Assembly (NCBI GenBank): GCA_946478645.1
Contig: CAMLCW010000294.1
Coordinates: 1 to 6,423, forward strand
DNA length: 6,423 nt
Direction of reading: 5' to 3'
From: an uncultured Variovorax sp.
GTDB lineage: Bacteria > Pseudomonadota > Gammaproteobacteria > Burkholderiales > Burkholderiaceae
The number at the start of each line of letters is the position of its first letter. The first letter of the stretch is position 1. This document shows positions 1 through 6,423 of the stretch, one piece after another. The notes under the pieces are model-generated. The model had not been told where the DNA came from, did no database searches, and saw only the letters and a list, made by a program, of their open reading frames with translations. The position numbers and the translations under genes were made by a program.

Positions 1-140
1 GGGACGACGACTACTCGTACAGCTCGTCGTGGTACGACTGGGATGCCGACTACTCCTACGATTCTTCGTGGGACGACGACTACTCGTACAGCTCGTCATC
101 GAACTACTGGGACGACGACTACTCGTCCGACTGGTCTTCC
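1..140 (+). repeat. In-frame degenerate coding repeats of the DDDYSYSSSW unit
   Basis: The bases at 1-28 recur exactly at 70-97 (offset 69 nt, 23 codons), and their first 18 bases recur again at 109-126. Between these lie diverged units ending in Trp. All spacings keep the reading frame, so gain or loss of units would change protein length without a frameshift. The codons GAC-GAC-GAC-TAC-TCG are reused almost unchanged, which points to recent expansion or homogenisation rather than selection on amino acids alone. Confidence 0.85.
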
Positions 141-947
141 AGTTATTCGTCCAGCTGGAATTCGGGTTCTGACGCACATGAGGACTACGTCGAATCACGG
201 GGGAATACTGGCCTCTATGAGGGCGGATTCTTGGCGGGAAGTCCAGTTGCCCTCGATCTGAATGACGACGGCGGAATCGGCGTGACTGGTGACACGTCGT
301 CCTTCCAGAAAGATGCCGATGCGCAGATCGGCCGTACCGTCCAGTTCGACATCGACGCAGACGGAGCCCTCGACACCATCGAGTGGTACGACGGCTCGGG
401 GGACGGCATCCTGATCGACAACCGCGACGGCCAAGCCATCGGCGACATGGATGGCGAACGACTGTTCGGCGACCAGGGCGGCAAGTTCGCGAATGGCTAC
501 GTCAAGCTCGCGCACCTCGATGCCGACGACAGCGGGGCCGTTGCGGGCGACGAACTCGAAGGCCTCCAGCTGTGGGTGGACAACGGCGATGCCGTGGTGC
601 AGAACGGCGAGATCCAGACGCTGACACAGCACGGCATCGTCGAGATTTCGACCCGGATGGCGTTGACCACCGACGACGAAGGACGCGAGCACATGACGTC
701 CACCGCGACCCGCTCGGACGGCAGCAGCCTGATGACCGAGGACGTGTGGTTCGTCGACGCAGGCGATGCGATCCCAGTCTCGGACCTCATGGCCGACGAA
801 GGCGCTCTCGACCGGCTCCTGGGCGCCCCTGCACCGCAAGCACAGCAGCATCAGCAGGACCTCGCACCCGATGGCCAGGCCGAAGCGGCAGAGTTGCTGC
901 GGAAGGTGTTGGCCGCCCACGCGGACAGCGAGGCACTCGCCGCCTGA
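3..947 (+). CDS. Secreted acidic-aromatic repeat protein with C-terminal EF-hand-like calcium-binding domain, probable T1SS substrate (5'-partial)
   Basis: The frame is open from the first codon in the window, so the true start lies upstream; 314 residues are visible. Residues 1 to about 56 are low-complexity Asp/Tyr/Ser/Trp repeats (DDDYSYSSSW at nt 3-32, DDDYSYSSSS at 72-101, DDDYSSDWSS at 111-140). From about nt 243 a globular domain starts with SPVALDLNDDG. It holds a full 12-residue EF-hand-like loop DIDADGALDTIE (348-383), the segment RLFGDQGG, a second loop DADDSGAVAGDE (519-554), a degenerate third loop before QNGEIQTL, and the closing motif RSDGSSLMTEDVWF. This order (LDLDGDG, FDxDGDG, ELFGD, LDxNGDG, LRVW, RSDGS..DVWF) is familiar from C-terminal regions of RTX-type proteins exported by T1SS. 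The tail after about nt 830 is Gln/Ala-rich and ends in an amphipathic segment (ELLRKVLAAH), a plausible secretion signal. That it is cargo of the adjacent transporter is inferred from position and domain. The biological role is unknown; a surface or matrix protein is one possibility. Confidence 0.85.
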   Translation, partial: DDDYSYSSSWYDWDADYSYDSSWDDDYSYSSSSNYWDDDYSSDWSSSYSSSWNSGSDAHEDYVESRGNTGLYEGGFLAGSPVALDLNDDGGIGVTGDTSSFQKDADAQIGRTVQFDIDADGALDTIEWYDGSGDGILIDNRDGQAIGDMDGERLFGDQGGKFANGYVKLAHLDADDSGAVAGDELEGLQLWVDNGDAVVQNGEIQTLTQHGIVEISTRMALTTDDEGREHMTSTATRSDGSSLMTEDVWFVDAGDAIPVSDLMADEGALDRLLGAPAPQAQQHQQDLAPDGQAEAAELLRKVLAAHADSEALAA

Positions 948-954
948 GCGTGCA

Positions 955-985
955 GGGCCGGGCACGCGTCTCGCGCACCCGGCCC
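955..985 (+). other. Strong GC hairpin downstream of first cargo gene
   Basis: GGGCCGGG (955-962) pairs perfectly with CCCGGCCC (978-985). Inside it, CGCG (965-968) pairs with CGCG (972-975) around a 3-nt TCT loop. The hairpin begins 7 nt after the cargo stop codon. No T-run follows, so it is not a standard intrinsic terminator. It is more likely an mRNA 3'-end stabiliser, a processing point or a partial transcription block that lowers expression of the transporter genes relative to the cargo. The structure is seen in the sequence; the role is inferred. Confidence 0.6.
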
Positions 986-995
986 GGCACCGCGC

Positions 996-1030
996 CGCCT
1001 GCCCGTTCGTGCCCGAGGAAGGGGCAGGCG
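996..1030 (+). other. Second GC hairpin before the ABC transporter gene
   Basis: CGCCTGCCC (996-1004) pairs perfectly over 9 bp with GGGCAGGCG (1022-1030), leaving a 17-nt loop. The purine-rich GAGGAAGGGG stretch (1015-1024), the only Shine-Dalgarno-like sequence in this gap, falls in the loop and the 3' arm. It ends 30 nt before the transporter ATG, too far to act as a normal ribosome site. No T-tract follows. With the hairpin at 955-985 it forms a tandem pair filling most of the 107-nt gap. Confidence 0.55.
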
Positions 1031-1054
1031 CGCCAGGCCTCCACAGACCACTTG

Positions 1055-3280
1055 ATGAGCACCACCTTGTCCCTCGATGACGCGGCGCCCGCCGCGGATG
1101 CCCCGGCGAAACCACCGGGCGATGCGCTGCTAGGCGCGATCATGTTCCTGGCGCAGCTCCTGGGCTGCGGCGTGGCCCGTGATCAACTGCGCGCGGCGCT
1201 CGACGCCCTCCCGCGGGACCTTGCCTTGCTCGATGCCGACGCACTCGGCTACCTGCTTCGGCATGCGCAACTCGGTGCTTCCGCCCTCGACGGCCGAAGA
1301 CCCCGGCGCGCGACGGAGCTGCCCGCGCTGCTCCTGGGGCCTGACGGGGCATGCCTGGTCGCCGTGTCGATGCAAGACGCGCGCTTCGAGGTGCATGTGC
1401 CCGGCATCGCCGGTACGGCCTGGCTCAGCCAGGAAGAGATCGACCAGGAGCTGCCGAATGTGCGCTGGTGGGCCGTGCGGCCCCAGCTGCAGTTCGACCA
1501 GCGCAGCCTCCTCTATACATTGCCGCAGCCGGCGCGCTGGTTCTGGGACGTGTTCGCCCGCAACCGCGGCGTGTTCGCCTGGGCCCTCGTGGGCACGGCG
1601 GCGCTGAACATCTTCGGCGCGCTGATTCCCTTCTACAGCATGGCCGTGTACGACCGTGTGATACCGCACAACGCGCTCAACAGCCTCTGGGTGCTCACCA
1701 TCGGCGTGGTGCTGCTGACCGGCTTCGACTTCGTGCTGCGGCTGCTGCGCAGCCACCTCGTGGATTCAACGGCGCGGCGCATGGACGTGGCGTTGTCCTC
1801 GCGCATCTTCGAGCAGTGCCTGCGCATGCGCGCCGCAGACCGGCCGGCCTCGGGCGGGACGCTGGCCAACACCGTGCGCGACTTCGAGTCGGTGCGCGAC
1901 TTCTTTGCGACCGGTACGCTCACCGTCCTGGGTGACGTGCCTTTCATGCTGCTGTACCTGGCGGTCATCTTCCTGGTCGGCGGCAAGCTGGCATTCGTGC
2001 CGGCACTCTTCATTCCGCTGGTGCTTGGGGTTTCCCTTGCTGCACGCCGCCCGCTGGCGCGGCAAGTCAGCGAATCCATGCAGGAGGGGGCGCAGCGCAC
2101 CGCACACCTGTTCGAAACCATGAACGGCCTCGACACCGTGAAGGCACTGGGCGCGGAGGCCTGGAGCCGCCGCAAGTGGGAACTGCTCACCCAGGCCATC
2201 GCCCACAACAGCTACAAGACGCGGGGCATTACCAACAGCATGAGCTATGTCAACACCATGCTCATGGGCCTGTGCACGGTGGCCGTGGTCGCCACGGGCG
2301 CCGTGCTGACGAGCGAGCATGCGCTCACCGTGGGCCAGATCATCGCGGTGAGCCTCCTCAGCTCGCGCGCCCTGTCGCCTGTGGTGCAGATTGCGGGGCT
2401 GCTGCTGCGCTGGGAGCAAACCCGGTTGAGCTTCCAGGCGCTGGACAAGATCATGCAGGCACCCACCGACGATGGAGCCTCGAGCATGCAGGCGCCGCCG
2501 TTGACGGGCGCGCTCGAGCTGCGCGACGTGACCTTCGCCTACCCCCGCCAGCCACCGCTGCTGGAGAGGGTGAACCTGCGCATCGCCGCCGGCGAGCGTG
2601 TGGGGATCATCGGCAAGCTCGGCTCTGGCAAGAGCACCATCCTGCGGCTTGTGTTGAACCAGTACGCGCCCGAAACAGGCGCAGTGCTGGTCGACGGCAC
2701 CGTCAGCACGCACCTCGATCCGCTCTCGCTGCGACGCCAGATCGGCTATGCACCGCAGGACGTTACCCTGTTCCACGGCAGCATCCGCGAGAACATCGAG
2801 CTCGGCCGAGGCACCGGCAATGATGTCCCGCTCGTGGCGGCGATGCGCACCGCCTGCCTCGACGAAGTGATTGCACAAATGCCGCAGGGTGTGGCCACGC
2901 CGGTGGGCGAGCGCGGCGAGCGCCTGTCCGGCGGCCAGCGCCAGCTCGTGGCGATCGCCCGTGCGCTGTTTATGCGGCCGCGGCTGCTGCTGCTCGACGA
3001 GCCGAGCTCTATGGTCGATCCGGCCACCGAGCAGCGCCTCATCGCACGCCTTCGCGGGCTCGAGAAGACCACCATCGTGCTTGTCACACACCGCATGGCG
3101 ATGCTCGCGCTGGTGGACCGGCTCGTGGTCATGGACCGTGGCCGCGTGGTGATGCAGGGGCCGCGCGAAGAGGTGCTGCGGGCGCTGAATGCACGTGGTG
3201 CCGAGACCGCGCCGGGCGCCGAACTGCCTGCCGCTGCCCCCAAGCGGACCGACGCGGAGCGCACACGCCATGGCGAATGA
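1055..3280 (+). CDS. Type I secretion ABC transporter (permease-ATPase) with degenerate C39-like domain, LapB/LssB type
   Basis: This 741-residue inner-membrane transporter would energise export of the flanking repeat proteins. Residues about 20-140 resemble a C39 peptidase domain, but the catalytic Cys position (in GAIMFLAQLLG) and the His position (in ACLVAVSM) are not conserved, so it should bind cargo rather than cleave it. A six-helix ABC membrane domain spans about 165-440. The ATPase domain has Walker A GKLGSGKST (520-528), the Q-loop Gln568, signature LSGGQ (624-628), Walker B LLLLDE (644-649) and the H-loop His679, so it looks fully active. The length matches LapB-like proteins (about 720). 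The start ATG (1055) follows an in-frame open stretch that belongs to another frame of the cargo gene. It is chosen because the C39-like domain begins about 20 residues later and the next Met (1141) would cut into it. No good Shine-Dalgarno precedes it. The gene overlaps the adaptor gene by 11 nt. Confidence 0.95.
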   Translation: MSTTLSLDDAAPAADAPAKPPGDALLGAIMFLAQLLGCGVARDQLRAALDALPRDLALLDADALGYLLRHAQLGASALDGRRPRRATELPALLLGPDGACLVAVSMQDARFEVHVPGIAGTAWLSQEEIDQELPNVRWWAVRPQLQFDQRSLLYTLPQPARWFWDVFARNRGVFAWALVGTAALNIFGALIPFYSMAVYDRVIPHNALNSLWVLTIGVVLLTGFDFVLRLLRSHLVDSTARRMDVALSSRIFEQCLRMRAADRPASGGTLANTVRDFESVRDFFATGTLTVLGDVPFMLLYLAVIFLVGGKLAFVPALFIPLVLGVSLAARRPLARQVSESMQEGAQRTAHLFETMNGLDTVKALGAEAWSRRKWELLTQAIAHNSYKTRGITNSMSYVNTMLMGLCTVAVVATGAVLTSEHALTVGQIIAVSLLSSRALSPVVQIAGLLLRWEQTRLSFQALDKIMQAPTDDGASSMQAPPLTGALELRDVTFAYPRQPPLLERVNLRIAAGERVGIIGKLGSGKSTILRLVLNQYAPETGAVLVDGTVSTHLDPLSLRRQIGYAPQDVTLFHGSIRENIELGRGTGNDVPLVAAMRTACLDEVIAQMPQGVATPVGERGERLSGGQRQLVAIARALFMRPRLLLLDEPSSMVDPATEQRLIARLRGLEKTTIVLVTHRMAMLALVDRLVVMDRGRVVMQGPREEVLRALNARGAETAPGAELPAAAPKRTDAERTRHGE

Positions 3281-4586
3281 AATGCAGGCTGCCGCGCGCG
3301 GCGACTTCAATCACGATCCGGATCGCGGCCCGGAACGCGTGGCGATCTGGATGGTGTTCGTGATCGCGCTGGTCGTCGTCACCGCCATTGCATGGGCCTG
3401 CCTGGCGCAGCTTGACGTCGCCGTGCAGGCGACCGGCGTGGTCGAGACATCCTCGCGTGTCGCCGAGGTGCAGAGCCTCGAGGGCGGCATCGTGCGCAAG
3501 CTGCTGATCCACCCGGGACAGGCCGTGCACAAGGGCGACCTGCTGGTGCAGCTCGATACTGCCCAGTACGCGGCCGACGTGGGCGAGAACCGTCAGGAAT
3601 ACCTCGCCGCGTTGGCAGGCCTCGCGCGCACCGATGCGCTGCTGGCCGGTACGCCGCCGCGCTTCGACCCAGCCTGGAAGCAGAACGCGCCGGCCCTTAT
3701 CGACAAGGAGATGGAGCTCTGGCGCGAAGGCCAGCGCGAGTTCGAGGCGACCGCCCGTTCGGGCAACGAGGCGATCCGCCAGCGCGAGAGCGAACTCCGC
3801 GAGGCGCAATCGCGCCTGCCTTCGCTGAAGGCGGCGCTGCGCCTCACCGAGGAGACCTTCGCGATCGAGGAGCGGCTCTTCAAGGAGGGCGCCGGCGCGC
3901 GTGCCGACTACCTGGCGGCGCAGCAGCGCGTGGTGACCCAGCGTTCCGAATACGACGCGGTCCGACAGTCGCTGCCGCGGCTGACGGCTGCATTGGCGCA
4001 GGCTCGCGCATCGGCGGCACAGGAGGTCTCCCGGGTGCGCACCCAATGGGGCACGCAGCGCAGCGAATTCGCTGCGCGGGCCGCGAGCCTTGCCGAAACG
4101 CTCGAAGGGCGCACCGACAAGCTCACACGGCGCGATCTCGTGGCACCCGTCGACGGCATCGTCAACCGGCTGCTCGTGACGACGGAGGGTGCGGTGGCGG
4201 CGCCGGGCAAGGCCGTGCTCGAGATCGTGCCCGACGATGCGCGCCTGTTAATGACCGTGCGCATCCAGCCCCCGGACGTGGGCTTCCTGCGACCCGGACA
4301 GACGTCGCGCGTGCGTGTGATGCCCTACGACGCCTCCACTTTCGGCCAGATGGACGCAACGCTGGAGCGTGTCGGCGCCGACGCGATCGTGGATGAGAAG
4401 GGCAACTCCTACTTCGAGGCGCAGCTCAGCGCCGAGCGCGGCCAGTTGCGGCTGCACGGTGAGCCGCTACGCATCACCCCGGGGATGCCCGTCGAGGCAA
4501 GCATCCTGACGGGTGAGCGCAGCGTCATGCAGTATTTGTTGAAGCCTGTGCTGCGTGGTGTGCAGGGCGCGCTGCAGGAGCGATGA
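3270..4586 (+). CDS. HlyD-family membrane fusion protein (T1SS periplasmic adaptor)
   Basis: This 438-residue adaptor would join the ABC transporter to the outer-membrane channel across the periplasm. A short cytoplasmic N-terminus precedes one membrane helix (about residues 24-46, VAIWMVFVIALVVVTAIAW). The first lipoyl half-motif is around 66-105 (LEGGIVRKLLIHPGQAVHKGD, Glu71-Gly73 marking its core). A long Glu/Arg/Ala-rich alpha-helical hairpin spans about 110-280, and the second lipoyl half starts at APVDGIV (292-298). A beta-barrel/membrane-proximal part follows, ending in the family-typical GERSVMQYLLKPV. The length is normal for HlyD/LapC. The start ATG (3270) has GGAG at 3256-3259, a good 10-nt spacing, and lies inside the end of the ABC gene; longer in-frame starts upstream have no support and lie deeper in that gene. 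It is translationally coupled to both neighbours. Confidence 0.95.
   Translation: MANEMQAAARGDFNHDPDRGPERVAIWMVFVIALVVVTAIAWACLAQLDVAVQATGVVETSSRVAEVQSLEGGIVRKLLIHPGQAVHKGDLLVQLDTAQYAADVGENRQEYLAALAGLARTDALLAGTPPRFDPAWKQNAPALIDKEMELWREGQREFEATARSGNEAIRQRESELREAQSRLPSLKAALRLTEETFAIEERLFKEGAGARADYLAAQQRVVTQRSEYDAVRQSLPRLTAALAQARASAAQEVSRVRTQWGTQRSEFAARAASLAETLEGRTDKLTRRDLVAPVDGIVNRLLVTTEGAVAAPGKAVLEIVPDDARLLMTVRIQPPDVGFLRPGQTSRVRVMPYDASTFGQMDATLERVGADAIVDEKGNSYFEAQLSAERGQLRLHGEPLRITPGMPVEASILTGERSVMQYLLKPVLRGVQGALQER
4576..4580 (+). promoter_or_regulatory. Shine-Dalgarno that selects the TolC-family start
   Basis: AGGAG lies at 4576-4580, inside the last codons of the adaptor gene. Three in-frame ATGs follow at 4583, 4589 and 4592, at spacings of 2, 8 and 11 nt. 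The 8-nt spacing favours 4589. The 4583 ATG overlaps the adaptor stop (ATGA) but sits too close to the site for normal initiation. Confidence 0.6.
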
Positions 4587-4588
4587 AC

Positions 4589-6052
4589 ATGATGAGCGCA
4601 CGCCGACAGCACACCCAATGGTTGCCCGCGGTTCTCCCGCCGGCGCTGGCAGCCCTGCTGTGCATGGCTGCGCAGGCCGAAGTGCGTGCGGCGTTGGCGG
4701 TCCAGGTCGGATCAGCCGTGCTCCCGCGCACCGGGAGCTTGCTCGCGCAGCAGCCGGGGGCGATGACGGCGGTGCAGGTCGGATCGGTTGTGTCCCCGCG
4801 GCGCACTGAGGGTTCGGCAGCAGGCGCGTCGCCGGACAGGGTCGGCCTGATCGCGCTGCTGCGGCACGCATTCTCGAACGATCCCGAAGTGCGCGGCTCG
4901 GCGGCCTTGCTGTCGGCTGCGCAGGACCAACTGGTGCAGGCGCGCTCACGCTGGTGGCCGGTGCTCGGCGTCCAGGCCAGCCGCGGCCGCAGCCGTGCCG
5001 AAGCCTCGGGGCAAGGCGTGGAGCGCAAGACCGACCGCGCGCAGGCGTCCTTGAGCTGGAACCTGTACAACGCCGGCACCGACGAAGCAGAGGTCGCCGC
5101 AAAGGGGCGTGAGGCGGAGGCGGCGCGCGAAGATCTGCGGCGCGTGCGCGAGGACGTGTGCGAGCGCATCGCGCAGGCCTACGCGCAAGTGCTGCGCTAC
5201 GACGACCTGCTGCCGGAATCCGAAGTGCGCGTGCGCCGCATGCAGCGGCTCCACCGGAAAGTCGGCATTCAGGTCGAGGCCGGCAAGCTGAGCGAGACGG
5301 ACCGCGTGCAGTCAGCGGCCACCCTGCTCGACGCGGAGATCGAGCATGGCCGGCTGGAATCCGAGGCCGAGGCGGCACGGATGCGCCTTGCCGAGCTCAC
5401 GGGCGTGCGCGGCGCGCGAGCCATCGACTGGCCCGCAGCGCTATCGGAGCCTCCGGAAGGCGACGATCTGGCCTCGAATCCCGCCCAGCTCGCGGCTGCG
5501 CGGCTGCGGGCCGAGGCCGCGCGCAGCCGGGTTTCGTCGGTTGCTTCGCTGTACGCCCCGAAGGTCGATCTGCAATACGACCATCAACTGCATGACCGCA
5601 CAGAGCCACGCCTCTCGGAGCAGCAGCGCAAGGGCTGGACCGTGACTGCACGATGGGACATTCCACTGGGTGGAGAGAAGCATGCGCGACGAGACGAGAG
5701 CAGCCATCGCGCCCAGGCGGCCGACGAAGAAGTCGCACGCGTTGCACAGAGCCTGCGGGCGGAGGCTGCCGGTGCGCTGGACCGGATCCGGTTCAGTCGA
5801 TCCGCCATCGAGAAGCTCCAGGACCAGGGGCGGCGCTATGGCGCTCTCGTGCAGGCGGCCGCGTTGCAGTTCGAGGCCGGGCGGCGCACGCTGGTCCAGC
5901 TCACGGACCTGGAGCAGAACAGTTTTCTTGTCCAGCAACGGCTGGCCGAGGAGCGGCTGCAACTGCGCACTGCGGTGCTACGGCAATGGACGCTGTCGGG
6001 TGAATTGCTCGGCCGGCTAGGACTCGACGGGCCGGACCCAACGCAGCGTTGA
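4589..6052 (+). CDS. TolC-family outer-membrane channel protein of the T1SS
   Basis: This 487-residue protein is predicted to form the trimeric outer-membrane/periplasmic tunnel of the secretion system. A Sec signal peptide is clear: a basic start (MMSARRQ), a hydrophobic core (LPPALAALLCM) and likely cleavage after AQA (residue 30). The Cys in the core does not make a lipobox. Residues 37-84 are an unusual linker holding two copies of an AVQVGS-x-V-x-PR unit 24 residues apart. The first outer-membrane efflux (OEP) half begins near residue 85 (VGLIALLRHAFSNDPEV, then LSWNLYNAG) and the second near 292 (SNPAQLAAARLRAEAA, then VDLQYDH and WDIPLGGEKH). Both end in long Ala/Glu/Arg-rich helices, the pseudo-duplication typical of TolC. 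Length is at the upper end of the usual range because of the linker. An in-frame start at 4583 (two more residues) is possible. It is the last gene of the operon. Confidence 0.93.
   Translation: MMSARRQHTQWLPAVLPPALAALLCMAAQAEVRAALAVQVGSAVLPRTGSLLAQQPGAMTAVQVGSVVSPRRTEGSAAGASPDRVGLIALLRHAFSNDPEVRGSAALLSAAQDQLVQARSRWWPVLGVQASRGRSRAEASGQGVERKTDRAQASLSWNLYNAGTDEAEVAAKGREAEAAREDLRRVREDVCERIAQAYAQVLRYDDLLPESEVRVRRMQRLHRKVGIQVEAGKLSETDRVQSAATLLDAEIEHGRLESEAEAARMRLAELTGVRGARAIDWPAALSEPPEGDDLASNPAQLAAARLRAEAARSRVSSVASLYAPKVDLQYDHQLHDRTEPRLSEQQRKGWTVTARWDIPLGGEKHARRDESSHRAQAADEEVARVAQSLRAEAAGALDRIRFSRSAIEKLQDQGRRYGALVQAAALQFEAGRRTLVQLTDLEQNSFLVQQRLAEERLQLRTAVLRQWTLSGELLGRLGLDGPDPTQR
4697..4807 (+). 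repeat. 72-nt-spaced direct repeat in the N-terminal linker of the TolC-family gene
   Basis: The segment beginning at 4697 (encoding AVQVGSAVLPRTGS) resembles that beginning at 4769 (encoding AVQVGSVVSPRRTEGS). They are exactly 24 codons apart, and the run CAGGTCGGATC is identical in both. The second copy has diverged at several positions, so the duplication is not brand new. It lies between the signal peptide and the first OEP half, outside the conserved fold. Confidence 0.7.
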
Positions 6053-6133
6053 CGAAGGCAGGCTATGGCTTGGAGAGAGAGATTTGAGGAGAGGAGGCTT
6101 TCTATTCGATTCAGCAGCACCTGATCCATGAAG

Positions 6134-6150
6134 GGCGCGCGTCACGCGCC
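6134..6150 (+). other. GC hairpin downstream of TolC-family gene
   Basis: GGCGCG (6134-6139) pairs with CGCGCC (6145-6150) around a 5-nt loop. It lies 82 nt after the stop codon and has no T-run after it, so it is more likely an RNA 3'-end structure than a terminator on its own. Confidence 0.4.
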
Positions 6151-6159
6151 AATGGCACA

Positions 6160-6186
6160 GGCGGTCGAGCTGGGAGGCCGACCGCC
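6160..6186 (+). other. Second GC hairpin downstream of TolC-family gene
   Basis: GGCGGTCG (6160-6167) pairs perfectly over 8 bp with CGACCGCC (6179-6186), with an 11-nt loop. No T-run follows. It lies only 9 nt after the hairpin at 6134-6150, repeating the tandem two-hairpin arrangement seen after the first cargo gene. Confidence 0.45.
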
Positions 6187-6267
6187 GATGAGATGGCCAC
6201 CTCGGTCATCGAAACGACATCCGTCGAAATCCGAACCTGCCACATATACCTGCAGGCCTCGATCGAA

Positions 6268-6301
6268 AGCCCGACCTTGAAGAGCTCGGGCTCAGGTTTT
6301 T
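6268..6301 (+). terminator. Rho-independent terminator
   Basis: AGCCCGA (6268-6274) pairs perfectly with TCGGGCT (6286-6292) around an 11-nt loop. It is followed within 4 nt by five Ts (6297-6301) and a further T-run at 6308-6311. This is the only structure in the window with the full stem-plus-T-tract form. It would end the transport operon, but it sits 31 nt before the ATG of the next gene, so it may also act on that gene's transcription. Confidence 0.65.
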
Positions 6302-6332
6302 CAATACTTTTGCTGTCACATAGAGGTTCATC

Positions 6333-6423
6333 ATGGATTCCTATAGCTACTCCGACAGTTCTTCCTGGGACGACGACTACTCGTACAGCTCGTCGTGGGA
6401 CGACTGGGACGATGACTACTCGT
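6333..6423 (+). CDS. Second acidic-aromatic repeat protein, paralogue of the first cargo gene (3'-partial)
   Basis: The start ATG at 6333 has GAGG at 6323-6326 with 6-nt spacing. Thirty codons are visible, beginning MDSYSYSDSSWDDDYS and continuing with further DDDYS and SSSWDDW units. The repeat starts at the very N-terminus with no signal peptide, as expected for a protein exported by T1SS through a C-terminal signal. Its DNA at 6367-6398 is identical to bases 1-32 of the window, so the two genes are close paralogues or were recently homogenised. The C-terminal domain is outside the window, so whether it also carries the EF-hand-like domain cannot be seen. The first gene's own N-terminus, also outside the window, may look like this one. 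Confidence 0.85.
   Translation, partial: MDSYSYSDSSSWDDDYSYSSSWDDWDDDYS
6367..6423 (+). repeat. Direct repeat matching the start of the window (bases 1-57)
   Basis: Bases 6367-6398 are identical to 1-32. Over the whole 57 nt, 52 positions match (differences at window positions 33, 44, 46, 47 and 56). Both copies are in the same orientation and the same reading frame, 6,366 nt apart, with the complete transport operon between them. Confidence 0.9.

Follow-up and report, generated by a model that had tools for sequence, protein, structure and literature searches.

The window analysed here, positions 1 to 6,423 of contig CAMLCW010000294.1 of an uncultured Variovorax sp., carries five genes, all on the + strand, in which linked genes for an ATP-binding cassette (ABC) protein, a membrane-fusion protein and an outer-membrane protein make up a type I secretion system (T1SS) gene set. 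The first-pass annotation had described an overlapping ABC/HlyD/TolC-like run between two genes encoding repeats of aspartate, tyrosine, serine and tryptophan (D/Y/S/W), and gene coordinates, family models and repeat counts all confirm this layout. A T1SS with neighboring substrates is the ordinary part of the locus; less ordinary are a domain in the upstream gene (gene A) that has the fold of the FrpC self-processing module (SPM), lacks its cleavage residue and stands in place of repeats-in-toxin (RTX) sequences, and a C-terminal tail that, judging from the sequences compared, travels with the transporter on different protein bodies. The features are as follows (window numbering):

1..947, + strand, frame from base 3, stop codon 945-947: gene A, proposed T1SS substrate with C-terminal homologs, 5′ end outside the window
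3..173, + strand: passenger of A, a low-complexity D/Y/S/W repeat with 57 residues visible and predicted to be disordered
240..770, + strand: SPM-like (FrpC-type, PF26745-type) domain of A, from fold comparison and a predicted model
762..944, + strand: C-terminal tail of A, proposed T1SS export signal, with a terminal helix at 867-941, from the tail model and predicted structure
1055..3280, + strand: ABC permease-ATPase of an LssB-type T1SS, above the TIGR03375 cutoff
3270..4586, + strand: HlyD-type periplasmic adaptor, above the TIGR01843 cutoff
4583..6052, + strand: TolC-like outer-membrane efflux protein (OEP), above the PF02321 cutoff
6268..6301, + strand: hairpin and following T run within the gene B leader, a weak candidate terminator or attenuator
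6333..6423, + strand, from the ATG: first part of gene B, which encodes a second D/Y/S/W repeat protein and runs past the window at its 3′ end

The ABC and HlyD genes overlap by 11 bases, and the HlyD and OEP genes by 4. Each product passes a family cutoff: the ABC protein scores 716.5 against the NCBIfam LssB model TIGR03375 (cutoff 693.1), the adaptor 338.8 against TIGR01843 (cutoff 208.65), and the outer-membrane protein 129.7 against Pfam OEP (PF02321; cutoff 22); the last falls under the TIGR01844 TolC cutoff (133.7 versus 225.15) and is assigned as OEP only. The window thus resembles LssB-type systems in its ABC protein and its HlyD and OEP partners, but the substrates examined here bear an SPM-like domain and a tail, and no RTX arrays.

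Relatives were sought with the C-terminal half of A, and the best ones are in Variovorax; a first scan of genome contigs had found none. Close ABC relatives (E ≤ 1e-220; identity 62-71%) are present in 4 of 101 Variovorax genomes, in 12 of 399 from the family and in 9 of 21 from one further genus, 21 distinct genomes altogether. The ABC, HlyD and OEP genes are collinear at all of the first 15 loci and at five of six further ones (one contig ends inside the ABC gene). A protein with an A-type C-terminus lies near the transporter genes in all 15 first loci, proximity here meaning a distance of about 1 kb, with not every gap inspected for small genes: it is upstream in 14 (and at one of these, L063, on both sides, the arrangement of the window) and downstream only at L062. 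At the other six loci the substrate is upstream in five, and the remaining contig begins 247 bases before the ABC match. The expected substrate-transporter linkage therefore holds at 20 of the 21 loci with a close ABC relative. That a system may serve more than one substrate is likewise borne out, by L063 with substrates on both flanks, by the tandem genes of L003, and by unlinked tail-bearing genes in genomes G001 and G002 (see below). At L003 (6600-11829), two complete tandem substrates have nearly identical domains and tails, and a third gene, which encodes SdrD_B domains, lies incomplete at the end of the contig. Two relatives' contigs, L041 (G068:C303) and L071 (G507:C212), start inside the upstream substrate gene, as the window does; it is as if repeated or duplicated substrate DNA broke assemblies upstream of the transporter. 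Matches of the transporter DNA to plasmids were partial only (1341 records, none covering 80%), and no description of this locus was found in literature searches limited to open-licence PMC text.

Transporter-linked substrates share, with divergence, a tail in which an LLG..LD..LLG-type stretch is joined by a variable linker to an LRKL-type amphipathic helix, the residues at the very end being mostly small. We built a tail model from A and 13 of the linked proteins (threshold E ≤ 1e-4) and scored 14 candidates per genome in the family run and 57 in the genus run. It matched 5 of 101 Variovorax genomes, namely all four with the ABC gene plus the metagenome-assembled genome G003, and 9 of 399 genomes in the family sample, every one of which belongs to the twelve ABC-positive genomes. 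The telling part of this survey is the 387 family and 96 Variovorax negatives together with the matches independent of the model (G068, G157, G275, G416, G002:C36, the second G003 copy and G001:C8). At G001:C8 the match is to a protein of 460 residues that combines SdrD_B domains with the tail and had been missed by the domain model; this genome has an unlinked tail-bearing gene and G002 has two, and both carry the T1SS. RTX protein export signals are described in PMC3034196 as C-terminal, unprocessed and about 60 residues long, and the distribution of the tail looks like that expected of a portable export signal.

The proteins carrying these tails differ in their passengers. SdrD_B domains were present in 5 of 5 Pfam-scanned substrates from transporter-linked or tandem loci, and Big_9 in 3 of 5; thus the proteins of L001, L003, L033 and L057 share the domain and tail of A, but theirs are immunoglobulin-like passengers and A's are D/Y/S/W repeats. 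GGxGxDxU RTX arrays were found neither in visible A nor among 22 proteins (L063 has one isolated match). A is like RTX exoproteins in its T1SS linkage and its Asp-loop, Ca2+-type C-terminal half, but its visible part lacks their arrays. The second L003 paralog opens with a short Y/S/W/G stretch, YSWGYP...SESWDDWGSN, and a His/Gly-rich run, a hint that low-complexity N-termini recur.

In A itself, D, S, Y and W together make up 53 of the first 57 visible residues, with Tyr and Trp contributing 16. The DNA pattern coding DDDYSYSS occurs three times in the window and in none of 200 shuffles, and Tandem Repeats Finder gives a unit of 39 bases in A and 30 bases in B. The repeat of A is in frame with the conserved domain and is therefore coding, and the predicted model has a predicted local distance difference test score (pLDDT) below 50 across nearly all of residues 1-74. 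Protein searches with residues 1-66 (228 candidates, none at E ≤ 1e-3) and 1-60 (225 candidates, none at E ≤ 10) gave no relative, and are weak negatives because low-complexity correction applies. The DNA pattern was absent from 399 family genomes when matched exactly and from 101 Variovorax genomes with one mismatch allowed; 1 of 21 genomes of a related genus had a lone DDYSYSTSR, which is not a repeat. Bases 1-300 had no match in plasmids, nor protein A in phages. None of 90 homologs carries the repeat (P0061 and P0086 have short runs of other composition); a six-frame scan of 103 loci (945 kb) reached at best 19 of 40 D/Y/S/W residues, compared with 38 of 40 in A, and the 16 substrates of the first locus set at most 17 of 40 meeting the aromatic criterion. 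Several relatives' substrates are cut at contig or fetched-region ends, and their N-termini lie outside these repeat scans. On the sequences available, the passenger of A is without relatives found in the searches made. The repeat itself is thus still unmatched, and the proposal of a system dedicated to acidic-aromatic repeat proteins is not supported, given SdrD_B in all five scanned substrates and the low D/Y/S/W content elsewhere.

The disordered acidic-aromatic passenger would most likely serve as sticky matrix or surface material, with Tyr and Trp as stickers and Asp and Ser as spacers. The main rival on this point, which we consider rather unlikely, is that the repeat acts as a flexible spacer or stalk without being adhesive itself. 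Staphylococcal Sdr proteins have Ser-Asp repeats in such a role, and the SdrD_B domains of the relatives, together with the S/D-rich and predicted disordered character of the repeat, would fit it; against it, the repeat of B begins at residue 2, with nothing N-terminal to hold out (domains could follow past the window), and 16 aromatic residues in 57 would be unusual for an inert spacer.

Another, improbable, alternative is that A and B are two views of a single gene, in a tandem unit or a repeat-collapsed assembly, so that there is a single repeat substrate. The window does begin and end in near-identical repeat DNA, the last 57 bases differing from the first 57 at five positions, but these mismatches make A and B distinct copies as assembled; moreover, there is no exact end overlap of 8-199 bases, so that the window is not a simple circle, and relatives do have two-sided (L063) or tandem (L003) substrates. 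The two genes had been taken for paralogs, which is upheld for the repeats, with 32 identical bases in common; at sequence level paralogy is demonstrated for the repeats only, the C-terminus of B lying outside the window.

The C-terminal Asp-loop domain read from A at first pass is supported. Its SPM fold is indicated by the predicted model of A and by a 50-sequence profile (the single A sequence had no match to FrpC at E ≤ 1), and precomputed Pfam annotation lists PF26745 for the 90 homologs of A with two exceptions; a scan of visible A against a Pfam library without the PF26745 model, the 5′ part being outside the window, returned no family, SdrD_B included. The earlier statement that the proteins could not be matched to a named family is therefore partly overturned, namely for this domain. 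Compared with the FrpC module, A has the same fold and keeps nearly all structural residues checked, but Ser80 (240-242) occupies the position of the scissile Asp, with Pro81 next, no RTX block follows the module, and the domain sits directly before the C-terminal tail. By sequence alone, the residues of three of FrpC's four Ca2+ sites match. Nearly all relatives have S or T at the scissile position. That the domain still self-processes, at Ser/Thr-Pro or elsewhere, releasing or covalently attaching the repeat passenger as FrpC does, is very doubtful: the fold, nearly all checked structural residues and the Pro after the scissile bond are kept, but the FrpC route as described in PMC7078468 proceeds via an Asp anhydride, which Ser or Thr presumably cannot form, and the Asp is absent from 49 of 49 A3 homologs and from the 23 scorable of 25 tail-family proteins, with D-P in only 1 of 82 scorable homologs. 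A compost-metagenome homolog, P0059, has Asp-Pro at this position and is possibly a self-cleaving family member.

The domain is not confined to this transporter. The domain model matched 14 of 101 Variovorax genomes at 22 places, many weakly, and the SPM-like domain alone was rejected as a marker of the transporter after 20 further loci (two pairs being the same place) were inspected: 11 had no match to the window's T1SS genes, two an ATPase-domain match only, and seven, representing six separate places, matched the HlyD protein at 27-30% identity, which points to a different T1SS; in 7 of the 20 the weak domain was not re-found by script. Three of the 11 T1SS-unmatched loci (two places, G002:C36 and G002:C20) bear the tail. 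The database search that had been suggested for the repeat and the C-terminal domain gave nothing for the repeat, and placed the domain also at loci without this T1SS. Many of the 90 homologs end within about 10 residues after the domain, without a tail; P0034, P0041, P0073 and similar proteins, from Myxococcaceae, Sericytochromatia and other sources, end in the domain with few residues behind it. Its place at the ends of such varied proteins suggests that the fold has uses beyond this T1SS. Plasmids contain the domain in 16 records, all below 60% identity.

From gene order, linkage, the fold, the replaced Asp and tail co-occurrence, which sequence or model comparison provides, we infer, with a probability of roughly 0.7, that an LssB-class T1SS of Burkholderiaceae (Variovorax-like) type exports a non-RTX exoprotein family in which a passenger is followed by an FrpC-type SPM-like domain and a C-terminal tail. 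The tail, some 60-75 residues ending in the amphipathic LRKL-type helix, would be the recognition signal; the domain would stay unfolded in the low-Ca2+ cytosol, fold outside on Ca2+, and there cap and probably pull the chain, as RTX repeats do elsewhere. Since FrpC's self-clipping Asp is Ser in A, the protein is expected to stay whole. Only tentatively would we extend this to a plug-in platform, in which a clip-dead SPM replaces RTX repeats as a Ca2+-triggered cap and the portable tail ships any passenger, here a new acidic-aromatic, sticker-and-spacer class that may condense or adhere extracellularly.

Several points weigh against the proposed export system. In three genomes with the ABC gene (G179, G283 and G473), the SPM-like substrate next to it gave no tail match, which suggests that tails diverge, and G003 has the tail with no ABC match. 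Since A and the same 13 proteins supplied the tail model, most of its positives are circular, and the 14 candidates scored per genome in the family run make those negatives weaker. Only 1 of 20 tails fits the '[FLI][VAI]' ending that PMC8861453 reports for RTX effectors, and one of the EF-like Ca2+ loops of A is degenerate, with R153 where FrpC has E474. Export by this transporter is predicted from the genes, the passenger's function is a suggestion from its composition, and the N-terminus of A and nearly all of B lie outside the window. The three ABC-positive genomes and the few family candidates scored lowered our confidence slightly.

Two smaller features accompany these genes. The OEP protein has an N-terminal extension (4690-4800) with a near-duplicated VQVGSxVxPR stretch before the conserved domain. 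The hairpin at 6268-6301 has a 7-bp outer stem and a T run about 30 bases 5′ of the gene B start codon; its fold energy is not under that of shuffled sequences, and a consensus terminator scan missed it. Scans for Rfam families, tRNAs and sigma-70/terminator signals, run on the window or its gaps, were negative.

The locus appears to separate passenger, Ca2+ folding and export signal, roles usually merged in RTX proteins, and its tail is a short candidate signal testable by fusion. Its D/Y/S/W passenger may represent a natural example of a secreted low-complexity material. In many proteins the SPM fold persists although the residue for cleavage is missing, a pattern suggesting that its more general use may lie in folding driven by Ca2+ and not in clipping.
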